This document shows, one piece after another, positions 4,363-27,216 of a stretch of DNA of 27,216 bases (within the stretch, counting starts at the first letter, position 1; each line of letters begins with the position of its first letter). Made by a program: the position numbers and the translations under genes. A model generated the notes under the pieces. The model saw only the letters and a program-made list of their open reading frames with translations, ran no database searches and had not been told where the DNA came from. Source of the stretch: a virus; IMG/VR virus record IMGVR_UViG_3300027746_000083, positions 1-27,216 of that record. One strand, given 5' to 3'.

Positions 4363-4731
4363 GTGACTAAACCATCCTGGTTCGTTGCTGCCCTACTGGG
4401 GGCCTTTGCTGCCCTGCTGTCAGCCCATCTTGGCATGATCGGTTACGCCGCTCAGCGTTGCTCTCTCTACGGGGCGAAACTGGGCAACCGGATGGATCAA
4501 GCTCAGATCGGCGGCCCAGCGGCACAAAGGCTGCATCAAGAGATTATTGAAAACGGTACGAAGTGTGGAAGGCTCATGGATGATTTCCAGAAGGCGTCCG
4601 ACAACTATCAGTCAACCATCCTGGCCCTGCTGGGTGGTGCAGGGCTCAGTGCTGGGGTTGGTGCAACAGCACAAAAAAGGTCGGATGAGTTTCCTCCCCC
4701 GACCAACAATCAACGCAAGGATGAATACTAG
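4363..4731 (+). CDS. Small two-membrane-segment protein, holin candidate
   Basis: A 122-residue protein begins with GTG at 4363, nine bases after the tail fiber stop, with AGGTGAT as ribosome binding site. Two hydrophobic stretches are visible: about residues 5-30 (FVAALLGAFAALLSAHLGMI) and about 84-103 (STILALLGGAGLSAGVGA). A soluble helical stretch lies between them and a charged, Pro/Asn-rich C-terminus follows. Two membrane segments with a polar C-tail, located after the tail fiber gene, is what holins of T7-like phages look like (T7 gp17.5 follows gp17). I infer a role in lysis, but no sequence family is recognised and it could be another small membrane protein. Its TAG stop is interlocked with the stop of the gene converging from the other strand. 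Confidence 0.55.
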   Translation: MTKPSWFVAALLGAFAALLSAHLGMIGYAAQRCSLYGAKLGNRMDQAQIGGPAAQRLHQEIIENGTKCGRLMDDFQKASDNYQSTILALLGGAGLSAGVGATAQKRSDEFPPPTNNQRKDEY

Positions 4732-5207
4732 AGTTGCGAGTGAGTTTGATAAGCTCCACAGCCCCTAGCATAAAGACTGCCTTCGATGGCGGCCTCAGGG
4801 ATGCCTAATGTGCAGTCGCCCCCAACTCGTTTCTTTCCCCAGTGAGTACAGCGGTAGCAATAAGCTCCCTTTTTACTGGGATCAAGACGTTCCAGTTCAG
4901 GTAAAACATCAGCATATATTTGCCCAAACCTGATCCGCATTACGGTATCCCTGGCAATACCCACTGACTCTGACACAGCTAGATGTGACTCGACTGGGGA
5001 GTGTTCAAGCACGGCCCGCACTGCTACAGCCTTTTGTTCATCCGTGAGTATGTAGGCGCCAGCGACATTACGGTGAATCTCCCCCATTCTGATCTTGGAG
5101 ATTGTTTGCTTGGATACGCCAAACTGACGGCCCAATTCACTGTTAGATTCTGAACTATTGAGGATAGTGTAAACAGCCTCGGGGGAGAGAGGGGAATGGC
5201 GGCTCAT
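4728..5207 (-). CDS. Double helix-turn-helix protein with C-terminal Cys motif, putative DNA-binding
   Basis: The 159-residue protein starts at ATG 5207, overlapping the previous stop as ATGA and preceded by a purine-rich AGGAGGTGGAGGG, so I prefer it to longer starts. Residues 22-49 (SELGRQFGVSKQTISKIR, then G.I..NV) form a helix-turn-helix of the type seen beside phage homing endonucleases and in small phage regulators. Residues ~72-102 look like a second, diverged copy (VGIARDTVMRIRFGQIYADV). Cysteines 117, 120, 132 and 150 (CYRC, DC, GC) could bind zinc. No nuclease motif is seen, so a DNA-binding regulator is the simplest reading. It is last in the minus-strand block and its stop overlaps that of the plus-strand gene. 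Confidence 0.6.
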   Translation of the reverse strand: MSRHSPLSPEAVYTILNSSESNSELGRQFGVSKQTISKIRMGEIHRNVAGAYILTDEQKAVAVRAVLEHSPVESHLAVSESVGIARDTVMRIRFGQIYADVLPELERLDPSKKGAYCYRCTHWGKKRVGGDCTLGIPEAAIEGSLYARGCGAYQTHSQL

Positions 5208-5626
5208 CCCTCCACCTCCTCGGCTTGGGGCAGCGGGATGGCGTGGGTCTGGCGTGACCCGCCACGCGAAGGGAGCGGAGAAATACGCAAACCATACAGA
5301 ATACCTTTGGACCCCTCCTCTTCGAACCAATCAGAAACCGAGGTGTGTGGCGCGGGAGGTGGGCCATCCCAGTGACAGTTGACCATCCCGGCCTGCTGCT
5401 GGAGCAGGGTGGCGGCGCGGTCTAAATCTCCAGGGCCAAACTGGCGAGACTGCAAATCAGCCGCCAACTTCGCCACCTCCCCCGGCTCCGGCGCTGGCGG
5501 GGCGGGCTGGGCAGCCTCTAACGCCTCAACGCGCTCCAGCAGGTTCAGTAAAGTTTGGGAAACAACAGCACCATCGAGGGCGGCGGAATGGCGCAGCCAA
5601 GCCAGGGTTTCGGGAGGGATGTTCAT
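5204..5626 (-). CDS. Hypothetical protein, 140 aa, with N-terminal helical segment
   Basis: The start ATG at 5626 overlaps the upstream stop (ATGA) and its own stop overlaps the start of the HTH gene, so the three genes form a tightly coupled operon. The N-terminus (residues ~5-38) is predicted helical with LLNLLERVEALEAAQ, possibly a short coiled coil, followed by a Pro/Ala/Glu linker, a second helical segment (DLDRAATLLQQQAG) and a C-terminal part containing DWFEEEGSKGILYGLR. No family is recognised. Confidence 0.6.
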   Translation of the reverse strand: MNIPPETLAWLRHSAALDGAVVSQTLLNLLERVEALEAAQPAPPAPEPGEVAKLAADLQSRQFGPGDLDRAATLLQQQAGMVNCHWDGPPPAPHTSVSDWFEEEGSKGILYGLRISPLPSRGGSRQTHAIPLPQAEEVEG

Positions 5627-6263: not shown

Positions 6264-7079
6264 TCACCGGATGGCCCAGGCCCAGCCACCGCCTACAAAC
6301 AAACGAGGATTCAGGTTTTGGAAGGAATACTTGATACTCCTTCCCGCCCCTTGGGCCGATGTGATCCAACCACCGTTGACTAGGTTGATTTCACCATAGG
6401 GATCGTGACAGATCCAATGAGTATTGGTGTAGCCAATAATGGCAATGAAGTGGCCACCACCACCGGGAGCACTTACATGGCCGTGATGTAATACACCGGC
6501 TGCTACAACATTGCCACGATCAAGCTCAGAGCGGATCTGTTCGGGTGTCCAGTTGACACGCCATTCAGCACCGCTATAGCCAATCTCCTCAAGTGCCCCC
6601 ATGTGAGCACCCCTAGTAGTTGTGTCACCGTTACGCCTGACAACACGCAAGTAATCCAGATCATCACGGATGCCCGGAACATGCTTGAACGCCAAGCCCA
6701 TAGCGATAGACGACGTTTGACATTCCCTCCATCCGGTATCCCCGTTATCGAGTTGCCAGAAGTAAGGAACGGCTAGGGGGTTAGCAACAGAGGGTGTTGG
6801 TGGCGTTGAGTATGTCTTGCGCCATGCTGCATCTTCGCTAAGGATGCCAGGATTGGCAGCCAGGATTTCACCGTGAAGCAAGGAGACTGCTTTCTTTTGA
6901 TGATCTGCGCCTGTGTAGTTCGCGAAGAACTGCTCAAAGCGTTGGGGCAACATGGGCTCAGGCATATTGAAGAACGCGGGATTGGGTTTTGTAGGGAACC
7001 CCGCCATGAGTCCCCAGGAACCAAACTTGCCCTTTTGTGTCGAACGCCAACGCTGTTGACTCCAGAGGGTGGGAGCCAC
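6264..7079 (-). CDS. C39-like papain-fold peptidase, possible cell-wall hydrolase
   Basis: In 271-residue numbering from GTG 7079, the C-terminal half carries a C39-family-2-like cysteine peptidase signature: Cys120 (WRECQTSSIAMG), His210 (GGGGHFIAIIGY) and Asp226 (CHDPYGE). Residues ~44-90 form a separate helical region (RFEQFFANYTGADHQKKA). Phage proteins of this fold can act as peptidoglycan endopeptidases; no T7-type amidase is present in the window, so this is a candidate lysis enzyme. It may instead act on protein or in assembly. The start is uncertain: the GTG at 7079 and ATGs at 7007 and 6965 are all possible, and another ORF (7128-6958) occupies the same region in a different frame and ends over the ATG at 6965. 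Confidence 0.65.
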   Translation of the reverse strand: MAPTLWSQQRWRSTQKGKFGSWGLMAGFPTKPNPAFFNMPEPMLPQRFEQFFANYTGADHQKKAVSLLHGEILAANPGILSEDAAWRKTYSTPPTPSVANPLAVPYFWQLDNGDTGWRECQTSSIAMGLAFKHVPGIRDDLDYLRVVRRNGDTTTRGAHMGALEEIGYSGAEWRVNWTPEQIRSELDRGNVVAAGVLHHGHVSAPGGGGHFIAIIGYTNTHWICHDPYGEINLVNGGWITSAQGAGRSIKYSFQNLNPRLFVGGGWAWAIR

Positions 7080-7143: not shown

Positions 7144-7698
7144 TCAGGCTTTCTTTGCCTTGGCCTTGGGCTCAGCCTTGGGAGCCTCGGCGGCGGGAGC
7201 TTTGGCTGCCTCAGCTTCAGCGGCTGCAACGGCTTCATCGGTCCCAGGCTCGATTACAAGGACGCCTTCATCCTTGTAAACGGACACGAACGTGCCAGGG
7301 GTCAAGCCCAGCAGGCGGGAATAGGCAGCGCCAACGGGGATAAGGCCGCCGGGACCGACTTTCAGAACGCCTCGGGGGCCAGTCTCACCACGGGGCTTGC
7401 GCTCAGGCTTGGCAGGGGCAAAGCCGTTAGCCGCGCTGATGGCCTTGTAATAGCGGGCGCGATTCAGGCGGGGCTTGCCATCAATGAGCTTGTAATGGCC
7501 AGTTGCCTTGATGGCTTCGCTTTCCTTGAGGCCGGGATTGGCAGCCAGAAAGTCGAGAAGCTCTTGGCCCTCAAGGGTGGTGATGGTGTCGGAGTCGGAG
7601 TCCTGAACGAGAGGGGCGGCGCAAGCGGGGGCTTCGGTCCCATCAAAGGGGACAACCTCAGCAGGAGCAGTGGACGAGAGAAGGGCAGAAGCCGTCAT
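7144..7698 (-). CDS. Cyanobacterial AbrB-like (cyAbrB) transcriptional regulator
   Basis: The 184-residue protein has the two-part layout of cyanobacterial AbrB-like regulators. Residues ~42-94 match the cyAbrB-specific N-terminal region (LEGQELLDFLAANPG, KATGHYKL, RARYYKAISAANG). Residues ~108-150 look like the swapped-hairpin DNA-binding fold (GVLKVGPGGLIPVGAAYSRL, then LGLTPGTFVSVY). Residues 1-40 are low complexity, and 151-184 form an Ala/Glu/Lys tail ending PKAKAKKA, resembling nucleoid-protein tails. In cyanobacteria these proteins are global regulators of nitrogen, carbon and redox genes; host-directed control by the phage copy is inference. It lies between the gp14-like gene and the peptidase, apparently in the late block. 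Inverted repeats lie directly upstream. Start is ATG 7698 without Shine-Dalgarno. Confidence 0.8.
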   Translation of the reverse strand: MTASALLSSTAPAEVVPFDGTEAPACAAPLVQDSDSDTITTLEGQELLDFLAANPGLKESEAIKATGHYKLIDGKPRLNRARYYKAISAANGFAPAKPERKPRGETGPRGVLKVGPGGLIPVGAAYSRLLGLTPGTFVSVYKDEGVLVIEPGTDEAVAAAEAEAAKAPAAEAPKAEPKAKAKKA

Positions 7699-7703
7699 TC
7701 GGG

Positions 7704-7748
7704 CGAAAGGGTTGAACGCTCACAACCCTAAACCGTTGTCAACCTTTC
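7704..7748 (-). promoter_or_regulatory. Nested inverted repeats in the leader of the AbrB-like gene
   Basis: In the gap before the AbrB-like gene, GGGTTG (7709-7714) pairs perfectly with CAACCC (7723-7728). The overlapping GAAAGGGTTG (7705-7714) can alternatively pair with CAACCTTTC (7740-7748) with one bulge. In mRNA the 3' arm lies about six bases from the start codon, so the two mutually exclusive hairpins could control translation; as DNA it could be an operator. Confidence 0.4.
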
Positions 7749-7749
7749 G

Positions 7750-8964
7750 TCAACCCAGTTTCTCAAACAGGCTCTTGCCGGTTGCAGCCTTGTTGTACGT
7801 CTCTGCCGTGGACAGGCCATTAACAAGGGCAGAGCCAATCAGGCCAGCGGTGCCAACCTTTGACGGGGAGCCAACTGTCGCAAGCTCCGGCCTCAGTCCC
7901 GGTGTGGGCTTGAGGGGGTCGAGGAAGGGGGCCATGCGGTACGGCTGGGCTGCCTCATACAGCTTGGCGTCCGTCTGAATCTGCAGGGCGGCAAGCTCAC
8001 GCCCGTACTGCCGTTGCCCCAGATCGAACGTAGGCATGGTCAACTTTTCAAGGACATTGGCCTGATAGGTGGTATCGCGGTTGTAGGTGCTGCTCAGTAG
8101 TTCCTGATCCCGCTTGGCCTTGCCATAGGCGTAGTCGCCACGGGCGATCTGATCCTGGCTTTGCAGGGCGAACCGCGTCATTTCGGCATTGGTGCTATTC
8201 CTCATGGTGGTATTGGCCATGGCCACCTTGAGGTCCCTTGACCTCGCCTTCTGATCGAGTTCGGCATAGGTTCGGCCTGCCGCCTGTGCCGCTGACAGTG
8301 CCAGTCGCTGGGAGGTGGCACCGCCCCCCTGCTGGGCCGAAACAACCGCACTGATCCGTCCGTCCTGCTCCATGGCTGCGATCTGCTGAAGGTGGTAGCC
8401 CAGCGTGTCGCGGGCTTCATCCAACGTCAGGCTGGCCATTAGATCAGTGGTGTCATCTTGATAGCGTTGAAGGACACTGTTCGATTGATTGCCTAGCAGG
8501 TTGATTTGATTAAGGAACTGGCGGGACTGCTCAAGCTGATCCATCGCTAGCTGCGTGGACTGATACTGATACTCACTCTGTAGCTTGCCTTGCCCATAGG
8601 CATACTCCATCCCAACCTGTTGCCCCCTCAGTTTCTCCTCGGTAACGAACCGATCAGCCAATGCAGCTTGATTGATCGAAAGGTTCTGTCCTGCATTATG
8701 AATCAACATGTTTGCATAGTTTGCCTGGTCCTGCGCCTTCTGCAATTCAACATCGCGGAGTTGGTTAGTCCTCGCCATGTCCCATTCCCATTGAAGGTTG
8801 GCCTGCTTATTGGCAAACTCCCATTCCCTTACGGCAAAGTCATATTGCTGTTGTGCTGCCTGCTGCTGCTTCTTTGCCTGCTTCTTTGCCTCGTCGTTGG
8901 CAGAAGTGGCCCCCAGTACGGACTGACCGATACCCAGTGCCGCTCCAATAACTGCTCCCCACAT
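7750..8964 (-). CDS. gp14-like internal virion / DNA-ejection protein
   Basis: The 404-residue protein follows tail tube B as gene 14 does in T7-like phages. I prefer ATG 8964 (MWGAVIGAALGIGQSVLG) over TTG 8970; a GGGGGA lies upstream and the tail tube B stop overlaps the site. The N-terminus is a glycine-rich hydrophobic helix, followed by a long Gln/Ala/Lys-rich, likely coiled-coil region (KKQAKKQQQAAQQQYDFA) continuing to about residue 300 and a Pro-containing C-terminus. This matches the gp14/cyanopodovirus internal core type: a small hydrophobic N-terminus plus helical rod, thought to form the outer-membrane channel during DNA ejection. Assignment rests on position and architecture more than on diagnostic residues. 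Confidence 0.7.
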   Translation of the reverse strand: MWGAVIGAALGIGQSVLGATSANDEAKKQAKKQQQAAQQQYDFAVREWEFANKQANLQWEWDMARTNQLRDVELQKAQDQANYANMLIHNAGQNLSINQAALADRFVTEEKLRGQQVGMEYAYGQGKLQSEYQYQSTQLAMDQLEQSRQFLNQINLLGNQSNSVLQRYQDDTTDLMASLTLDEARDTLGYHLQQIAAMEQDGRISAVVSAQQGGGATSQRLALSAAQAAGRTYAELDQKARSRDLKVAMANTTMRNSTNAEMTRFALQSQDQIARGDYAYGKAKRDQELLSSTYNRDTTYQANVLEKLTMPTFDLGQRQYGRELAALQIQTDAKLYEAAQPYRMAPFLDPLKPTPGLRPELATVGSPSKVGTAGLIGSALVNGLSTAETYNKAATGKSLFEKLG

Positions 8965-8966
8965 AG

Positions 8967-11540
8967 TCAATCCCCCTGTGCCCGATCATTGTAGGCGCCT
9001 TCCCAGGAGGCACCAGAGAGGGTGAATGGGAAAGTCGAATCACTCTCAACTGATACAACACAGTCAATGTTGCGGGTGCCAACCATGACGCGATGGCGCC
9101 CTGTATCAAGGGAGTAGTTGAAGGCGTCGAGGGTGTTGAGTTCGACGTTCACCTGCCTTGGGTTAAATGGCTTCACCGTATCGGCATAGCGATTCTTCCT
9201 TGCAACCCTCAGGGTGTAGGGGCCTGAATTGGAGTGATAAGTAGTCCAGCTAAGGATTTGCAAGCGGCCTGTTTGATCCCTGACAATTCGATCCCTCCCT
9301 TCTGCCCTGGCAGGGGTGTAGACCGCACTGAATACATGGCGGCTGGTGTATCTACCACCAAAGGAGATTAGGTCACCAGTCCAGTTGCCACGCTCACTGC
9401 ATACGATCTTGTTGCCGGATGACGTTTTACCAATCTCCAGGGATCGCTCCCTATTGTTGTCAAAGCGAATGACGGCAAGTGTTTCTGTAGCTGCTGCATA
9501 GGGCAGGGTGAATGTAGTTCGATCAGAGCCAGCATCGTATGAGGCTGTGATGTTATTGGTTGTGATTGTATCCGAGTTACATTCGGGATAGTCAATGCGC
9601 CGATCAAGACAGAACTCAGGGCCAGTTGAACTACGCAGTTCGGGCGTCGTCATGTCGAGCAGATAGGTTCCATCGCTATAGGTGACAAGCAGCCACAGGC
9701 GATTATCAAAGAACCTGACCCATTGGATGTTGCCACCAAACTGCCAAGTAACCCATGCTGACTGTTGCTTGACCAAGGCCCCTTGACTTGAACTCCATAG
9801 ATACTTATAGATGTAGAGTTTTGTTCGATCCGATGGGGAGGAAACGGCCATGAAGTCAAGGCCCTCGCTTACGTCCCACAGATCAGCAAGGCCAGAGATG
9901 AGGCGAGGGGCTTCACTGGTGATGCTGAGGCTTCCCCCTAAGTTGAGGCCCAACCTGCGGCTTTCAGTATTGACAAACTGGTATTCACGAAAGCCCGTGA
10001 ATCCTGTTTCACTTGTTGAGAATACAACGTTTGGCCCTGCAAGGCGAGGAGGCAACAGGGTATTCATGTCAATAGCGCTAAGCCTAATGACCTCTGTTGT
10101 CTTGGGAGTCATTACTTGGCCATCAGCCGCTCGCACCTGAAACTGCGCCGATTCGGCAAACACCAGAATCGACTCATCAGCAGCGATAGCCCAGTTCAGG
10201 AGGGGGGTAGAAGATCCCTCAGCGGGGGTAAGTAGGTCAATAGGATCAGTGTCGAGAACAGTTGTGCTTGTGTCCTGAAAGAAGTTGAAGATGTTGTCAG
10301 TCTCGGATAAAAGGATACTGTTCGACCCAACAACGACATAGCGTCCCCGATGAATGATGTGATCCCTGATGGACTTATCAACAAATGATGGAGTAGGAAC
10401 CGTTGTCTCATCACCCGCAGTACGCTGACCCCACTGGGGGAATGTATAGCTGTAGGTGTTTGGACCCGTGGTGATCGTTCGCGTTGCACCATCAGCAGGG
10501 CCGATGAATAGGACGCCAGTAGCAGCCCGATAGATGACAAGGGGTAGCGTATCTGCATTTAGCTTGTACTTAATTACTGGTGCTGTAACTTCCTGCCAGA
10601 AACCCTCACCGTATGTACTGCCATCAGTGGTGATGAACTTAACCCAATAGTCATCTAGGTTGCTGCTAGGGTCTGATGCGATCTTGATAGTGAATCCATT
10701 CCGTGAAACAGCAGGGAGGGACGAGAAGGAGGTAACTTGATCCTTGAGAACCCTGGCAAGGGCATTGGATCGAGAGTCATCAAGAGAGAGAGTAAACGCC
10801 GCTGAGTCCTGTCGCTTCACATAGACCAACGCACCATAAGCCGTTGCCGTAAAGCCTGACACTGCGTTAATCCTATTTGCCAACTCACTCGCTACTGTTG
10901 CTGTTGACAGAGTGTTATTCGTGTCCGTTGCCTTTGGAGTCCTGTACTCGGGAAGGTCAACACCATTCAGCGTCAGCTTGAAGCCAACGTCATAGGCAAC
11001 AGACTGAACAAAGATCAGTGCTTCATTGGCAATGGCTGGTGACAGATCACTTGCCAGCCCAACAGTTGCAGTTCTGTTCAACAGCAGGGCAACTGCTCCA
11101 CTGTTGGTCAGTCGATAATTAGTGGCAAGACCTGATGCCTTATAGATGTAGCTTGCGGCAGTGCCAGTGATGGTCCCACCGGATACGGTTAGCCCCGTAC
11201 CGTGAACATCAACAGCACAGGCAACACCGTCAAGGGTTGCTTCCATTGCCACGTTCCCCCCGCTGGGAACAATCGTGAACAGGTATCGCTCGCCGGTTTG
11301 GGGCAGGATCGTATCGGCCCACAGATCGGTGAGTTGGCTGGCTGAGATTCGACGCCTGAGGCGGGTAGGACGGCGCCTGGTAAGCCCCTCCACGGGGGAT
11401 GGCCATGTGTTCAGGGAGTCCTCAGCCTTGCCCGGTGGGCGGCTGCTGGCGGGCTGCTGGCTGATCCCCTGAATCAGGTTGTCGAGGCGGCCCTTCACCA
11501 AGGAAGCGGCAACCCTGCGGGAGCGAATGAGTTTCGACAT
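8967..11540 (-). CDS. Tail tubular protein B (gp12-like, nozzle)
   Basis: The 857-residue protein fits T7 gp12 (about 794 aa), which forms the tail nozzle. The N-terminal part has the characteristic opening of this family: LIQGISQQPASSRPPGKAED followed by WPSPVEGLTRRRPT. The remainder is beta-rich with many Ser/Thr, including a segment VFAESAQFQVRAADG and LSAIDMNTLLPPRLAG typical of tail tubular B proteins. ATG 11540 lies two bases after the stop of tail tube A, indicating coupled translation. Confidence 0.92.
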   Translation of the reverse strand: MSKLIRSRRVAASLVKGRLDNLIQGISQQPASSRPPGKAEDSLNTWPSPVEGLTRRRPTRLRRRISASQLTDLWADTILPQTGERYLFTIVPSGGNVAMEATLDGVACAVDVHGTGLTVSGGTITGTAASYIYKASGLATNYRLTNSGAVALLLNRTATVGLASDLSPAIANEALIFVQSVAYDVGFKLTLNGVDLPEYRTPKATDTNNTLSTATVASELANRINAVSGFTATAYGALVYVKRQDSAAFTLSLDDSRSNALARVLKDQVTSFSSLPAVSRNGFTIKIASDPSSNLDDYWVKFITTDGSTYGEGFWQEVTAPVIKYKLNADTLPLVIYRAATGVLFIGPADGATRTITTGPNTYSYTFPQWGQRTAGDETTVPTPSFVDKSIRDHIIHRGRYVVVGSNSILLSETDNIFNFFQDTSTTVLDTDPIDLLTPAEGSSTPLLNWAIAADESILVFAESAQFQVRAADGQVMTPKTTEVIRLSAIDMNTLLPPRLAGPNVVFSTSETGFTGFREYQFVNTESRRLGLNLGGSLSITSEAPRLISGLADLWDVSEGLDFMAVSSPSDRTKLYIYKYLWSSSQGALVKQQSAWVTWQFGGNIQWVRFFDNRLWLLVTYSDGTYLLDMTTPELRSSTGPEFCLDRRIDYPECNSDTITTNNITASYDAGSDRTTFTLPYAAATETLAVIRFDNNRERSLEIGKTSSGNKIVCSERGNWTGDLISFGGRYTSRHVFSAVYTPARAEGRDRIVRDQTGRLQILSWTTYHSNSGPYTLRVARKNRYADTVKPFNPRQVNVELNTLDAFNYSLDTGRHRVMVGTRNIDCVVSVESDSTFPFTLSGASWEGAYNDRAQGD

Positions 11541-11542
11541 AA

Positions 11543-12163
11543 TCAGATCCGTCCGTCAAGTGCAACGCTGGGGGAGTAGGGCACAACGCTGAGCCCTTCA
11601 CCACCAGATAACCAGTTATGCAGGGGGCCTGACTCCTCAAGTCTCATCAACATTGCCCGTGCATACTCCTCATCCTGCGAAGTGTAGGCATAGATAGAAT
11701 TGCTATTCACGAACCTGCCAGCAAAGATTCGTGCAGCCCTGATGGTGACGTACATCTGCGCCTGATGGGGTAGTTCATCCCATGTCAGAAGCATCACCAT
11801 CTCCGAAACGAGGAGGGATGATGGACTGCTGAATGTGAAGGTCTGATTACTCCGGTCATAGATCCTTCCACCCCTTACCGTGTACTGAGCAGTTGGGTAG
11901 TTGCGGGGATCGAACGTAACCCTTAGCTGGTTGGCTGGCAAGGGGTATTGATTGGCCGAGTTGCGGATCAATGTCACCCCAACATCAGTATTCCAACTGA
12001 ACCCTTCGGCCTGAACATCGCGTGACACTTCCGCCAGTGTTCGCCTGGCCACCGTACTCTCTGTGATTTCATTAAGTGACGTGCTACTGAATACATCAAT
12101 AGGTGCCTCCCCTATCACCGACAGGAGAATGTTTACTGCTTCAAGCTCAGTCACGGGCGGCAA
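11543..12163 (-). CDS. Tail tubular protein A (gp11-like, head-tail adaptor)
   Basis: A 206-residue protein of the size and position of T7 gp11, the adaptor between portal and nozzle. The opening LEAVNILLSVIGEAPIDVF matches the gp11 start, followed by AEGFSWNTDVGVTLIRN, as in the family. The start is either TTG 12163 or GTG 12154; neither has a Shine-Dalgarno sequence. It lies just downstream of the intrinsic terminator that follows the capsid gene, so its expression probably needs readthrough or its own promoter. Confidence 0.9.
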   Translation of the reverse strand: MPPVTELEAVNILLSVIGEAPIDVFSSTSLNEITESTVARRTLAEVSRDVQAEGFSWNTDVGVTLIRNSANQYPLPANQLRVTFDPRNYPTAQYTVRGGRIYDRSNQTFTFSSPSSLLVSEMVMLLTWDELPHQAQMYVTIRAARIFAGRFVNSNSIYAYTSQDEEYARAMLMRLEESGPLHNWLSGGEGLSVVPYSPSVALDGRI

Positions 12164-12244: not shown

Positions 12245-13282
12245 CTACAGGGTGTTGTAAATCTCCACCGTCGCCTCGGGTCGGATGTAGCCGAATCCAG
12301 CGATGAACTTACCGACCATAAGAGTCGATTGATACATCGCGTTGTAGTCGTTGCCGGTCATCTGCATGGACATACCACGCAACTTGGCAACACCTACGGC
12401 ACCACGTTGGAAGGCCAACATCCGGGTCTGCGTCATGTCAACGGACGACAACTGAGTTGTAGAGCCGTTCCAGACAAAGCCCTGTTCCCCAGTTGGGGCA
12501 GTGACGTTACCCTGTGCAAGATGGTTCGACTTGAGAACCGTGAACCCTGCCAGCTTTGTAAGCTGAGCTTCACGGTAAGAGCCAGGCGCACCACCGTTGC
12601 CCTGGTTCCAGTCCTGGTTAACAGCACGATCCGATTGGATCAGGCTGTAATACATGTCAGGACGACAGACCAGATAACGCTCATTGGGCGGAACGTCTTT
12701 CTCATCCATTGCCTGTGCTGCAGCAAACACAGCAGAGACGAGGTTGTTACCCGTGGGTGATGCGTTGGCTAGGTTGATCCTGGTTCCCGTTCGCGGCTGC
12801 TGATCGGGTGTTAGGCCGGTCGGCAGGTTAGCCGTCAAGTCACTTACAGACTGACGGGCAGCGAGACAGGTAACGCGAGCAACACGCCGATCCCAGAGTC
12901 GGGCAAGAGCTTCGCCCAATTCGACCGAATAGATTTGCCGAGAATCATAGTGATTCTTAGCGTCGTCAAGGTCATAGATGGTAGCATCTGCAATGACAAG
13001 ATCATCAACGTTAATGATGACTTCGTTTTGCCCGATGCTGCCTTGGCCTGCCACCATGTTGCCCGGTGTGTGATACCGGCCAATGGCGCGACCGATGATC
13101 GGGAACTGTGCAGACTTACCAGCGGTAAGGGTTTTCTCAAGCGTGAGGTTACGGAACACACAGCTACGCTTGAACGCTGTCAGAACCTCCCCACTAAACA
13201 TCTTGAGGAATAGTGCGTTCTGATCGGCATAGGCTGTAACGACGCCATTGATAGCGCCAAGCCTTGAAGGCGTAATAGTCAT
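12245..13282 (-). CDS. Major capsid protein (gp10-like)
   Basis: The 345-residue protein matches T7 gp10A in size and place, between scaffold and tail tube A. Recognisable stretches are ADQNALFLKMFSGEVLTAF near the N-terminus, GKSAQFPIIGRAIGRYHTPG and INVDDLVIADATIYDLDDA, characteristic of T7-like HK97-fold capsids. ATG 13282 is preceded by a SD-less leader, and a 152-base non-coding gap separates it from the scaffold gene. A strong terminator follows. No frameshifted gp10B-type extension is evident; the terminator begins shortly after the stop. Confidence 0.93.
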   Translation of the reverse strand: MTITPSRLGAINGVVTAYADQNALFLKMFSGEVLTAFKRSCVFRNLTLEKTLTAGKSAQFPIIGRAIGRYHTPGNMVAGQGSIGQNEVIINVDDLVIADATIYDLDDAKNHYDSRQIYSVELGEALARLWDRRVARVTCLAARQSVSDLTANLPTGLTPDQQPRTGTRINLANASPTGNNLVSAVFAAAQAMDEKDVPPNERYLVCRPDMYYSLIQSDRAVNQDWNQGNGGAPGSYREAQLTKLAGFTVLKSNHLAQGNVTAPTGEQGFVWNGSTTQLSSVDMTQTRMLAFQRGAVGVAKLRGMSMQMTGNDYNAMYQSTLMVGKFIAGFGYIRPEATVEIYNTL

Positions 13283-23658: not shown

Positions 23659-24669
23659 TCAGTAGACGAGGTGTTCAAGGTCCACAGCAGAGCCATGGAC
23701 ATAGCGTTGGGTCACGGACATAGATAGATGCCCGCCCCAAGCCATGAGCTGAGGGCCAGACCAACCCTGAGAGGCAAGGCGTGTCAGGCAGGAATGGCGA
23801 AGGGTATGAACTACCCACTCTTTCCTTGTCTCACTGGAGAGCCTGAACCGATCACAGACGCGGTGCTTAGCCTCTGAATAGTGCTCCGAATAGCTGCGAT
23901 AGCTGATCGGGAACACTCGATCAGCACTCCTCGGCTGGGCTGCCAGGAGGGCCACCACAGGGGCAGGAATGGGGATGCGGCGAGCTTTCCCGCCCTTGGT
24001 CTTAGTGAAGATCAGAGAGGGCTTAGAGCCCTCCAGACTGACCCGATCCCAAGTCAGGGCAAGCCCTTCCCCGACGCGGCAGCCGATGTGCCACAAAAAC
24101 ACGGTGAGCCGATAGGACTCCCGATGTTCCATCTTTTCCAGTTCATCAAGCAAGGCTGAATACCATTCATCTTGCAAGACAAGTTGCCTGGGCTCACTCT
24201 CCTTAAGAAGTCTGCGCTCTGGGAAGAGAGGCAGCTCCTTAATCAATCGCAAGCGTTGAGCACGTTTAAGCATTACACGCAAAGCTGACATATAACGGTT
24301 GATCGTCCCATTACTACAGCCATTCCCATTAGGCCCCGTCTGGCGTAGCCAGGCCAAGAAGGTGTCTATCTTCTGCTCTGTCACATCGACAGGAAGATAG
24401 TCACCCCCAAAGTAAGCAGCAATGGCGCAACCTAGCTTGAATTGATCAGGCCCCTTGCCTGCCCAATCAAGGCGCTTACATGTCAGCAGTACAGACTCCA
24501 AGCCGCCTTCATTAGCAACAGCTTGTCTAACCTCCTGCCTGCCAAGCTGGGCTAAGAGTTGTTTCTCTACGACCCGTGCTTCTTCCTCAGACTCGCAAGC
24601 CTGGCACAGCCTCTTGCCCTTAAAGGCAGCGAAGGCTTTCCATCGACCATCAACAAAGCGGATACTCAT
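23659..24669 (-). CDS. int: Tyrosine-family site-specific integrase
   Basis: Start ATG 24669 overlaps the MarR-like stop as ATGA, giving 336 residues; the longer frame to 24696 is less likely. The catalytic set is complete: Arg198 (HIGCRVGEGLALTW), Lys225 (FTKTKGGKARRIPIP), His288 and Arg291 (VVHTLRHSCLTRLA), His314 (WGGHLSMS) and Tyr323 (TQRYVHGS). The N-terminus has a short arm-binding-like segment (IRFVDGRWKAFAAFKGKR), followed by a SAM-like core-binding domain around residues 60-150. With the tRNA-Leu half-gene ~600 bases downstream it forms a plausible integration cassette, as in marine cyanopodoviruses. All active-site residues are intact, so it may be functional. Confidence 0.95.
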   Translation of the reverse strand: MSIRFVDGRWKAFAAFKGKRLCQACESEEEARVVEKQLLAQLGRQEVRQAVANEGGLESVLLTCKRLDWAGKGPDQFKLGCAIAAYFGGDYLPVDVTEQKIDTFLAWLRQTGPNGNGCSNGTINRYMSALRVMLKRAQRLRLIKELPLFPERRLLKESEPRQLVLQDEWYSALLDELEKMEHRESYRLTVFLWHIGCRVGEGLALTWDRVSLEGSKPSLIFTKTKGGKARRIPIPAPVVALLAAQPRSADRVFPISYRSYSEHYSEAKHRVCDRFRLSSETRKEWVVHTLRHSCLTRLASQGWSGPQLMAWGGHLSMSVTQRYVHGSAVDLEHLVY

Positions 24670-25004
24670 TGTTCGGGATAAACAAGGTTTGCACAAGTCT
24701 CAAGGGTGGCCTTGCCCTTATCGGTCAGATAAACCAACACATAGCGGTCATCGTTAATGTCGCGTTCAGCTTTGAGTAGGCCAAGTTTCTTTCCCTTCCC
24801 ATCCCGTCTGCCATCGCCGCCGAGAGCATCAACGGCCCGTGATACTGCCGCCAAGGTAAGGCAACAGTTCGCAGCTAAATCGGTCTGGGATTGACCCTCT
24901 TTCTCGGCAACAGCCAAGAGAAGGTCTAACTGGGAAACGCGAAGCTGTGGATGCAATGACCGTAAGAATACGGTCATCTTTCTAAGGTGTCGTAGCGTAC
25001 TCAT
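24666..25004 (-). CDS. MarR-like winged-helix transcriptional regulator
   Basis: The 112-residue protein has the MarR layout: an N-terminal helix, LRVSQLDLLLAVAEKEGQ, a recognition-helix region QTDLAANCCLTLAAVSRAVD, and a wing (LLKAERDINDDRYVLVYLTD) ending KGKATLET. It is shorter than typical MarR proteins (about 140 aa), lacking part of the dimerisation helices. It is translationally coupled to the integrase (ATGA). Control of integrase or of a lysis/lysogeny choice is inferred from the operon. Start ATG 25004 has a CTTGCC leader without Shine-Dalgarno. Confidence 0.8.
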   Translation of the reverse strand: MSTLRHLRKMTVFLRSLHPQLRVSQLDLLLAVAEKEGQSQTDLAANCCLTLAAVSRAVDALGGDGRRDGKGKKLGLLKAERDINDDRYVLVYLTDKGKATLETCANLVYPEQ

Positions 25005-25530: not shown

Positions 25531-25554
25531 GGTTGGCAGGGAAGTGCAATCACA

Positions 25555-25589
25555 GGTTAATCGTTGGCCATGATTGAGCAAGGTCAACC
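25555..25589 (-). repeat. Intergenic repeat A, copy 1
   Basis: Matches copy 2 (26448-26482) at 31 of 35 positions. On the minus strand it begins GGTTGACCTTGCTCAATCAT and ends TTAACC. It lies between the stop at 25601 and the small membrane gene. The TTGACC could be a -35 element, but no good -10 is seen. Confidence 0.75.
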
Positions 25590-26416: not shown

Positions 26417-26443
26417 GATGAACAAAAGCGAGAGAACAAAGGT
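26408..26443 (-). repeat. Leader repeat B, copy 2
   Basis: Second copy of the leader/start-codon repeat found at 25961-25993; both copies include ATGCCTATT at the 3' end in mRNA sense, preceded by TTCGCTTTTGTT or a near variant. No Shine-Dalgarno in either copy. Confidence 0.75.
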
Positions 26444-26447
26444 CAAG

Positions 26448-26482
26448 GGTTAAAGGTTAGCCATGATTGAGCAAGATCAACC
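26448..26482 (-). repeat. Intergenic repeat A, copy 2
   Basis: Second copy of the 35-base repeat at 25555-25589, placed directly before leader repeat B copy 2 and about 18 bases after the stop of the ArdC-like gene. Both copies are downstream of a stop codon and upstream of a small unknown gene, so a promoter/operator or RNA processing role is possible. Confidence 0.75.
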
Positions 26483-26499: not shown

Positions 26500-27216
26500 C
26501 TATTCGGGCAGATCAGGGCATACCAGATCGGCTGCCTTTTTAGCTGCTGAGAGAACCTTAAAGAGTACGTTTGGCGACTCTTTAAGCACACTTGCCCAAC
26601 TAGATAGATAGGCTGCATGGTTCTCAGTGTTGCTATCAATCTGCAACCTGTTACAAACAAGGAAGGCACCTAATTCTGCGATCAATTCTTCCCTGGCATA
26701 TTCCATCTTGCCGGAACTGATCCCTGCCAACGGACGAGACAGCCGGGAGTGATGGCCGGTTGAATGGATTTGTTCGTGGGCAAGTGTAGAAAGATAGGCT
26801 GAATCGTTAACAAACTGCTTTCGCTCTGGCATCTGAATGTAATCCTCCATTGGAGAATAATAAGCACGATCTCCACCATGGTTAGTTTTAACTTTCCATG
26901 ATCTTAATTGCTTAAATGCACCGGCCAACCTTTCATCCTCTGGCCTTTCAACACCTACACCATCCATTGCCTTTTTAATTGCATCCTCTAATCCTTCCCC
27001 CTGTAGGTCTGCAATATTGAACAGACATTGAGGCTTAAAAAGTGTAAAACAAGTAAGCTCAGTCTCGCCCTGTTCGTTCTCGTTCTCAATCGCAATAGGT
27101 TTAGGGGCCAGAATGTAGCAGCCTTTCGATCCCTTTTTGGGGTACCAACCCCGCGACTTAGCCATGCCAGGCCCAACCCATAAAGAGTAGTCAGACTCTC
27201 TAGCAGCCTGCCCCCA
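26500..27216 (-). CDS. ArdC-like antirestriction protein with zincin domain (N-terminus outside window)
   Basis: The frame is open to the window end: 17 codons lie upstream of the ATG at 27165 without a stop (AARESDYSLWVGPG), and they continue the family pattern, so the gene starts beyond the edge. The visible N-terminal part (GWYPKKGSKGCYILAP) resembles the ArdC/DUF1738 single-strand-binding region. The C-terminal part is a metallopeptidase with HEQIH (His130, Glu131, His134 counted from 27165) and a third ligand in REELIAELGAF (Glu164). ArdC proteins carried by plasmids and phages protect incoming DNA from restriction. At the upstream end of the early region this would be an early-expressed counter-defence gene. 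Confidence 0.85.
   Translation of the reverse strand, partial: WGQAARESDYSLWVGPGMAKSRGWYPKKGSKGCYILAPKPIAIENENEQGETELTCFTLFKPQCLFNIADLQGEGLEDAIKKAMDGVGVERPEDERLAGAFKQLRSWKVKTNHGGDRAYYSPMEDYIQMPERKQFVNDSAYLSTLAHEQIHSTGHHSRLSRPLAGISSGKMEYAREELIAELGAFLVCNRLQIDSNTENHAAYLSSWASVLKESPNVLFKVLSAAKKAADLVCPDLPE

Follow-up and report, generated by a model that had tools for sequence, protein, structure and literature searches.

The ORF at 7144-7698 (minus strand) of the stretch analysed here, a 27,216-base IMG/VR virus contig that we refer to as the window, encodes what by homology is a very diverged but full-length member of the cyAbrB family. Its relatives in other viruses have uniformly replaced the cysteine that is characteristic of the host proteins, and we propose, at somewhat less than even confidence, that the product is a redox-blind variant that mixes with host cyAbrB or competes against it.

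The ORF was found exactly as the initial annotation had given it: 184 codons, intact, with an ATG start and homology to the AbrB of the uncultured phage MedDCM-OCT-S39-C11 (S39C11), to host cyAbrBs, and to the protein of the viral locus L170. Its product begins with an acidic low-complexity head (residues 1-41, net charge -6; 7576-7698), delineated by alignment and charge. This is followed by the cyAbrB-specific N-terminal domain (residues 42-92; 7423-7575), supported by alignment, model, and profile comparison, in which Thr66 occupies the site of the host redox cysteine. The AbrB-type domain (residues 110-150; 7249-7371) is delineated by alignment, model, and family profile and contains an acidic hairpin, KDEG, at residues 142-145, while sequence and charge define an Ala/Lys/Glu/Pro-rich tail (residues 151-184; 7147-7248). 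All of these segments lie on the minus strand. Head and tail had both been described before and were recovered here; in the alignment, the head is missing from the L170, L172, and S39C11 relatives, and the tail has no counterpart in the relatives. The GHYKL and RARYYKAISAANG stretches, previously read as hallmarks of the N-terminal region, line up with the GYY/FYxALLxAxG region of the host proteins. The order of the domains, with the cyAbrB-specific domain preceding a C-terminal AbrB domain, is that of host cyAbrB1 and cyAbrB2 (PF14250; Synechocystis Sll0359 and Sll0822), whereas in Bacillus AbrB it is reversed.

Several comparisons support the assignment to the cyAbrB family. Residues 38-149 are colinear with the annotated S39C11 AbrB (29.5% identity, E = 3e-12), and host cyAbrBs match the window protein in 180 of the 386 genomes of a sample of the cyanobacterial phylum (best E = 2e-10, 33%). 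Profile-profile comparison matched the phage and host N-domains with a probability of 98.5. The outcome of the HMM search that had been suggested was divided: the sole Pfam match of the window protein, to the AbrB-like family PF14250 over residues 83-138 (17.1 bits, E = 0.006; 18.9 bits and E = 4.1e-5 against the window record alone), stays under the cut-off of 25 bits, whereas the relatives exceed it, with 29.5 bits for S39C11, 39.2 for L170, 33.4 for L172, 32.6 for L012, and 53 for L208. Searches with the window protein alone found no match in the PDB sequences or in the viral contigs, a PHROGs search gave no family for full-length phage cyAbrB proteins, and PADLOC returned no match. Together with the S39C11 and host matches, the viral loci recovered with an alignment query (see below) settle the homology.

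The AbrB fold is supported with modest confidence. The family profile matches the solved protein 2glw (E = 2e-4), which we take to be an AbrB-type swapped-hairpin barrel. A model built from 29 aligned sequences was of moderate overall quality (pLDDT 67) and comprised a helix-helix-hairpin-helix unit at residues 45-90 (pLDDT about 85) and a beta-alpha-beta-beta unit at residues 119-151 (pLDDT about 77); the latter and the 2glw match are what the swapped-hairpin fold named in the initial annotation would predict. Prediction from the single sequence, with no alignment, reached a pLDDT of 45, and Foldseek found no significant fold match in the PDB, the top entry being AbrB-N 1yfb (E = 0.47).

Gene neighbourhood and viral relatives

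The contig carries a T7-type RNA polymerase and a T7-like structural gene order, which place the phage among T7-like viruses (Autographiviridae, Krakvirus-like). Its RNA polymerase is 40.8% identical to that of S39C11 (Krakvirus, Autographiviridae), the next-ranked one being that of Synechococcus phage S-SRP02 (26.6%); a terminase gene is absent from the 27-kb record. We infer a cyanobacterial host, indirectly, from the cyAbrB homologue itself and from the fact that the nearest phages include isolates such as S-SRP02. As the initial annotation had placed it, abrB follows virion genes. In transcription order and on the same (minus) strand, these are a gene for a 345-residue protein in the major capsid position (12245-13282), tail tubular protein A (TTPA; 11543-12163; phrog_446, E = 2e-41), tail tubular protein B (TTPB; 8967-11540; phrog_457, E = 3e-144; 41.4% identity to S39C11), and a gp14-like internal virion protein (7750-8970; weak match to PF24072, T7_gp14, E = 0.0096). 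Downstream of abrB lies a C39-like peptidase/endolysin gene (6264-7079; PF13529, E = 5e-7; phrog_10051 endolysin, E = 2e-47).

Searching viral contigs with an alignment query (A2) identified 47 loci, including L170, L172, the S39C11 group, a group on contigs of up to 70 kb, and L208. The order TTPA-TTPB-gp14-like-abrB is common to the window, S39C11, L170, and L172, with portal, scaffold, and capsid protein genes also present at the L170 locus. The gp14-like gene, holding the same position in each, is thus the conserved upstream neighbour, while the C39-like peptidase gene is not a conserved neighbour of abrB. The AbrBs of S39C11, L170, and L172 share only some 30-45% identity with the window copy (43% for L170). 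The S39C11 protein (BAQ94494) shares the full-length architecture and the position after TTPA, TTPB, and the gp14-like gene, but lacks the head (37 residues in this comparison) and the K/A/E tail of the window copy and is followed by a different gene. No abrB was found in the T7-like cyanophage S-SRP02, and at L208 the gene follows a DNA polymerase instead of virion genes. In the group on contigs of up to 70 kb (L196:7818-8399; similarly L176-L207), the cyAbrB gene lies between a RusA gene and a gene for a 136-residue protein plus MazG. The same block contains ERF, dCTP deaminase, and a sigma factor whose best matches are Synechococcus phages.

A phylogeny with host cyAbrBs, proposed as a check in the initial annotation, puts phage and host copies on opposite sides of a single branch (support 96/97). 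The podoviral copies form one clade apart from the host cyAbrBs, supported at 98/85 with the group-diagnostic columns removed. Removal of these columns shifts L208 towards the hosts, so that this gene may represent a separate capture. The alignment comprises about 110 columns, which makes the deep branches tentative, and the window copy has a long branch (1.47). Pairwise dN/dS values among close relatives, a set that does not contain the window copy, range from 0.01 to 0.08. Tree and synteny led us to reject a recent acquisition from a host for the podoviral clade; judged by both, the abrB of the window is an inherited phage gene and not a recent pick-up.

Cysteine loss, charge change, and N-domain proteins in other cyanophages

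Of 125 host sequences, 122 have the cysteine of the ACGY motif in the N-terminal domain and three lack it. All 38 phage sequences lack it, with alanine (34) or threonine (4, including Thr66 of the window) in this column. Phage proteins have cysteines at other positions, so this is not a general loss of the residue. Previous work on host proteins described a widely conserved single cysteine as a glutathionylation site that affects AbrB2 oligomerisation and DNA binding (PMC4264147), and showed that redox and pH change cyAbrB1 binding (PMC9241938). Since ACGY holds the sole conserved cysteine column in the host set, we infer that the reported site corresponds to it. The cysteine is a regulatory rather than a fold-defining feature of the family.

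A second difference concerns charge. The hairpin carries a mean charge of +2.1 in hosts (LG[RYK]K[HQ]I) versus -1.7 in phages, S39C11 AbrB likewise combining an acidic hairpin with the absence of the redox cysteine, and the net charge of the AbrB domain is +2.9 versus +0.5. Host cyAbrBs thus retain the cysteine, the basic hairpin, and the N-G-N and D-E-F motifs, all of which are altered in the phage versions. The lower basic charge need not mean that DNA binding was lost, since Bacillus AbrB has an acidic hairpin at the same place and yet binds DNA.

The N-terminal domain also occurs in cyanophages without an AbrB domain. In a fold search against viral models, the S39C11 protein was followed by an uncharacterised 52-residue product of P-TIM68, a Prochlorococcus phage (E = 6e-4; target TM-score 0.93; 0.8 Å across 52 residues). 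When a picocyanobacterial N-domain was used as tblastn query against 50,697 phage records, it hit nine, which belong to six phages, and every one of these is a cyanophage. P-TIM68 gp074 (L213:4001-4159; E = 2e-9) is a stand-alone N-domain of 52 residues, and Synechococcus phage B23 gp246 (L214:3965-4393; 142 residues; E = 2e-6) joins the N-domain to a different, short C-terminal part. Further matches are found in S-B28, WH11-B, and 7B11-B (E = 3e-3) and in S-CBP1 (E = 0.2). In S-B28, WH11-B, and S-CBP1, the N-domain is fused to about 126 residues with a net charge of -25 to -29. Such fusions of T7-like cyanophages (L211:1647-2207, L212:3980-4540, L215:1127-1693, and L217-L235) are placed ahead of the phage RNA polymerase gene, relatives being encoded at 20 viral-contig loci, and their N-domains match host cyAbrB N-domains with a probability of 97.8 in profile-profile comparison. 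The fused acidic domain weakly resembles ArdA (Pfam, E = 0.029, 2 of 13 members) and an anti-restriction PHROG (E = 1e-4), and some depositors labelled the proteins "antirestriction protein"; a PDB search gave no match for this domain, and its possible ArdA identity is weak. The cysteine is again replaced, by threonine in P-TIM68, alanine in B23, and alanine or serine in the fusions. P-TIM68 also has a separate anti-restriction protein gene (gp061) about 3.5 kb upstream of gp074.

Candidate roles during infection

Host cyAbrB2 is a nucleoid-associated protein that coats AT-rich regions and insertion elements; it has been likened to H-NS and Lsr2, with a possible part in defence against foreign DNA (PMC11368403), and cyAbrB1 and cyAbrB2 interact (PMC4264147). 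Phages are known to disable H-NS-type proteins, T7 gp5.5 through their oligomerisation domain and T4 Arn by DNA mimicry (PMC8501957). The logic proposed here, in which a nucleoid protein is perturbed at the surface by which it oligomerises or binds DNA, would be shared with gp5.5, Arn, and LUZ24 gp4. These belong to other protein families and act in other hosts, whereas the window protein, whose role is putative, is itself homologous to the nucleoid protein of the host.

The initial annotation had suggested a late reprogramming factor or a DNA-packing or silencing protein. Loss of the redox cysteine, the acidic hairpin, and the N-domain's occurrence in other cyanophages, either by itself or joined to an acidic ArdA-like domain, shift the balance from simple mimicry of the cyAbrB regulon towards interference with host cyAbrB, as far as comparison of the proteins can tell. 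The sequence of events that we tentatively favour, and to which we give a little under an even chance, would begin with late production of the phage protein, along with the virion proteins. The protein would then form mixed oligomers with host cyAbrB through the N-terminal domain, the AbrB barrel, or both; for the N-domain, it is the reported effect of cysteine modification that points to oligomerisation. Since the phage protein lacks the glutathionylation cysteine and its hairpin is acidic, such complexes would not respond to redox state and would bind DNA differently, so that the hold of cyAbrB on the DNA of phage and host would be loosened or reset. Purifying selection on the AbrB domain in relatives suggests that the protein probably continues to bind DNA or to dimerise, and it argues against a pure decoy, which need not keep this domain. 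The gene position argues against interference: abrB lies in the late block, whereas the ArdA-like fusions sit in the early region. Antagonists of silencing usually act early, and a late position fits such an antagonist less well.

A redox-blind regulator acting alone, which would bind host or phage promoters and fix the expression of C/N or redox genes while the infected cell oxidises, functioning as host cyAbrB does but without its switch, is a possible but less probable explanation. It would account for the retained AbrB domain and the selection on it, for the absence of the cysteine from all phage versions, and for the known control of C/N and redox genes by host cyAbrBs. The drop in basic charge of the AbrB domain and the late gene position speak against it, and the stand-alone N-domain proteins of other cyanophages do not fit direct binding to promoters.

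We regard it as unlikely that the protein is a minor virion component or that it binds to the phage's DNA at a late stage, for compaction, packaging, or control of late genes. Its fixed place in the late block, right after the gp14-like gene, and the Lys/Ala-rich tail of the window copy would suit such a function, but the relatives lack the tail, the group on contigs of up to 70 kb has abrB amid genes of DNA metabolism and L208 after a DNA polymerase gene, and other T7-like cyanophages, such as S-SRP02, manage without the gene. That abrB is a functionless relic of a host gene, diverged under relaxed constraint, is very improbable: the weak profile score (17 bits) and long branch of the window copy would be in line with it, but the ORF is intact at a conserved position and purifying selection is strong, as measured in relatives rather than in the window copy.

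Interference with host cyAbrB might extend beyond this phage. Pieces of cyAbrB are found in several unrelated viruses of cyanobacteria, which suggests that viruses commonly target the host protein. The family is widespread in cyanobacteria, and cyAbrB1 is essential in Synechocystis. A broader proposal, which we consider conceivable but doubtful, is that cyanophages share an anti-cyAbrB strategy; cyAbrB, as the cyanobacterial counterpart of H-NS, would be a xenogeneic silencer that they have to neutralise. Redox-blind full-length versions would serve this purpose in T7-like phages and in the group on contigs of up to 70 kb, and a bare 52-residue N-domain in a myovirus; in other T7-like phages, the fusion would carry an acidic ArdA-like DNA mimic to cyAbrB. 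A role of cyAbrB in guarding against phages is in print only as a suggestion (PMC11368403). The gene type itself is already on record through the database annotation of S39C11, the one prior record found. Our full-text search of open-licence papers found no description of a phage-encoded cyAbrB, nor any mention of the conserved synteny, the phage-wide cysteine loss, or the recurring N-domain. The cysteine-free phage cyAbrBs and the N-domain proteins make the question of an anti-phage role directly testable, and culturable pairs exist, P-TIM68, S-CBP1, S-B28, and WH11-B being isolates.

Further features of the contig

The intergenic region 5' of abrB contains GGTTGAC repeats and a GGGTTG...CAACCC palindrome (7704-7755). 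The repeats at 7704-7748, singled out earlier as possible binding sites, are present but weak: the window has seven copies of GGTTGAC where 3.7 would be expected. The palindrome occurs once in the window and was seen in 5 of 100 shuffles, and the RNA fold of the region has a z-score of -1.6; on these grounds, we dropped an operator role, and no regulatory function is supported. Nor are the repeats a conserved part of the locus, since the corresponding gap in S39C11 is only 23 nt.

A tyrosine integrase gene lies beside a gene for a MarR-like regulator (phrog_9665) at 23659-25004 (minus strand), an arrangement also present in S39C11 and S-SRP02, with a regulator-integrase pair in S-CBP1. No convincing host attachment site for this region was found in the 386 genomes, the sole match being 37 bp within a coding sequence. 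At 4728-5330 (minus strand), the contig encodes a predicted HTH protein whose C-terminus, rich in cysteine (CYRCTHW...GDC...GCGAYQ), might form a metal-binding module. An MPTase-PolyVal zincin metallopeptidase is encoded at 26500-27165 (minus strand; PF18818, E = 1.6e-37). This domain is known from ArdC-like antirestriction proteins, and the gene is possibly an early counter-defence gene. Near the same end of the contig, a 40-nt direct repeat (25550-25589 and 26443-26482; 85% identical) possibly represents a repeated promoter or operator.
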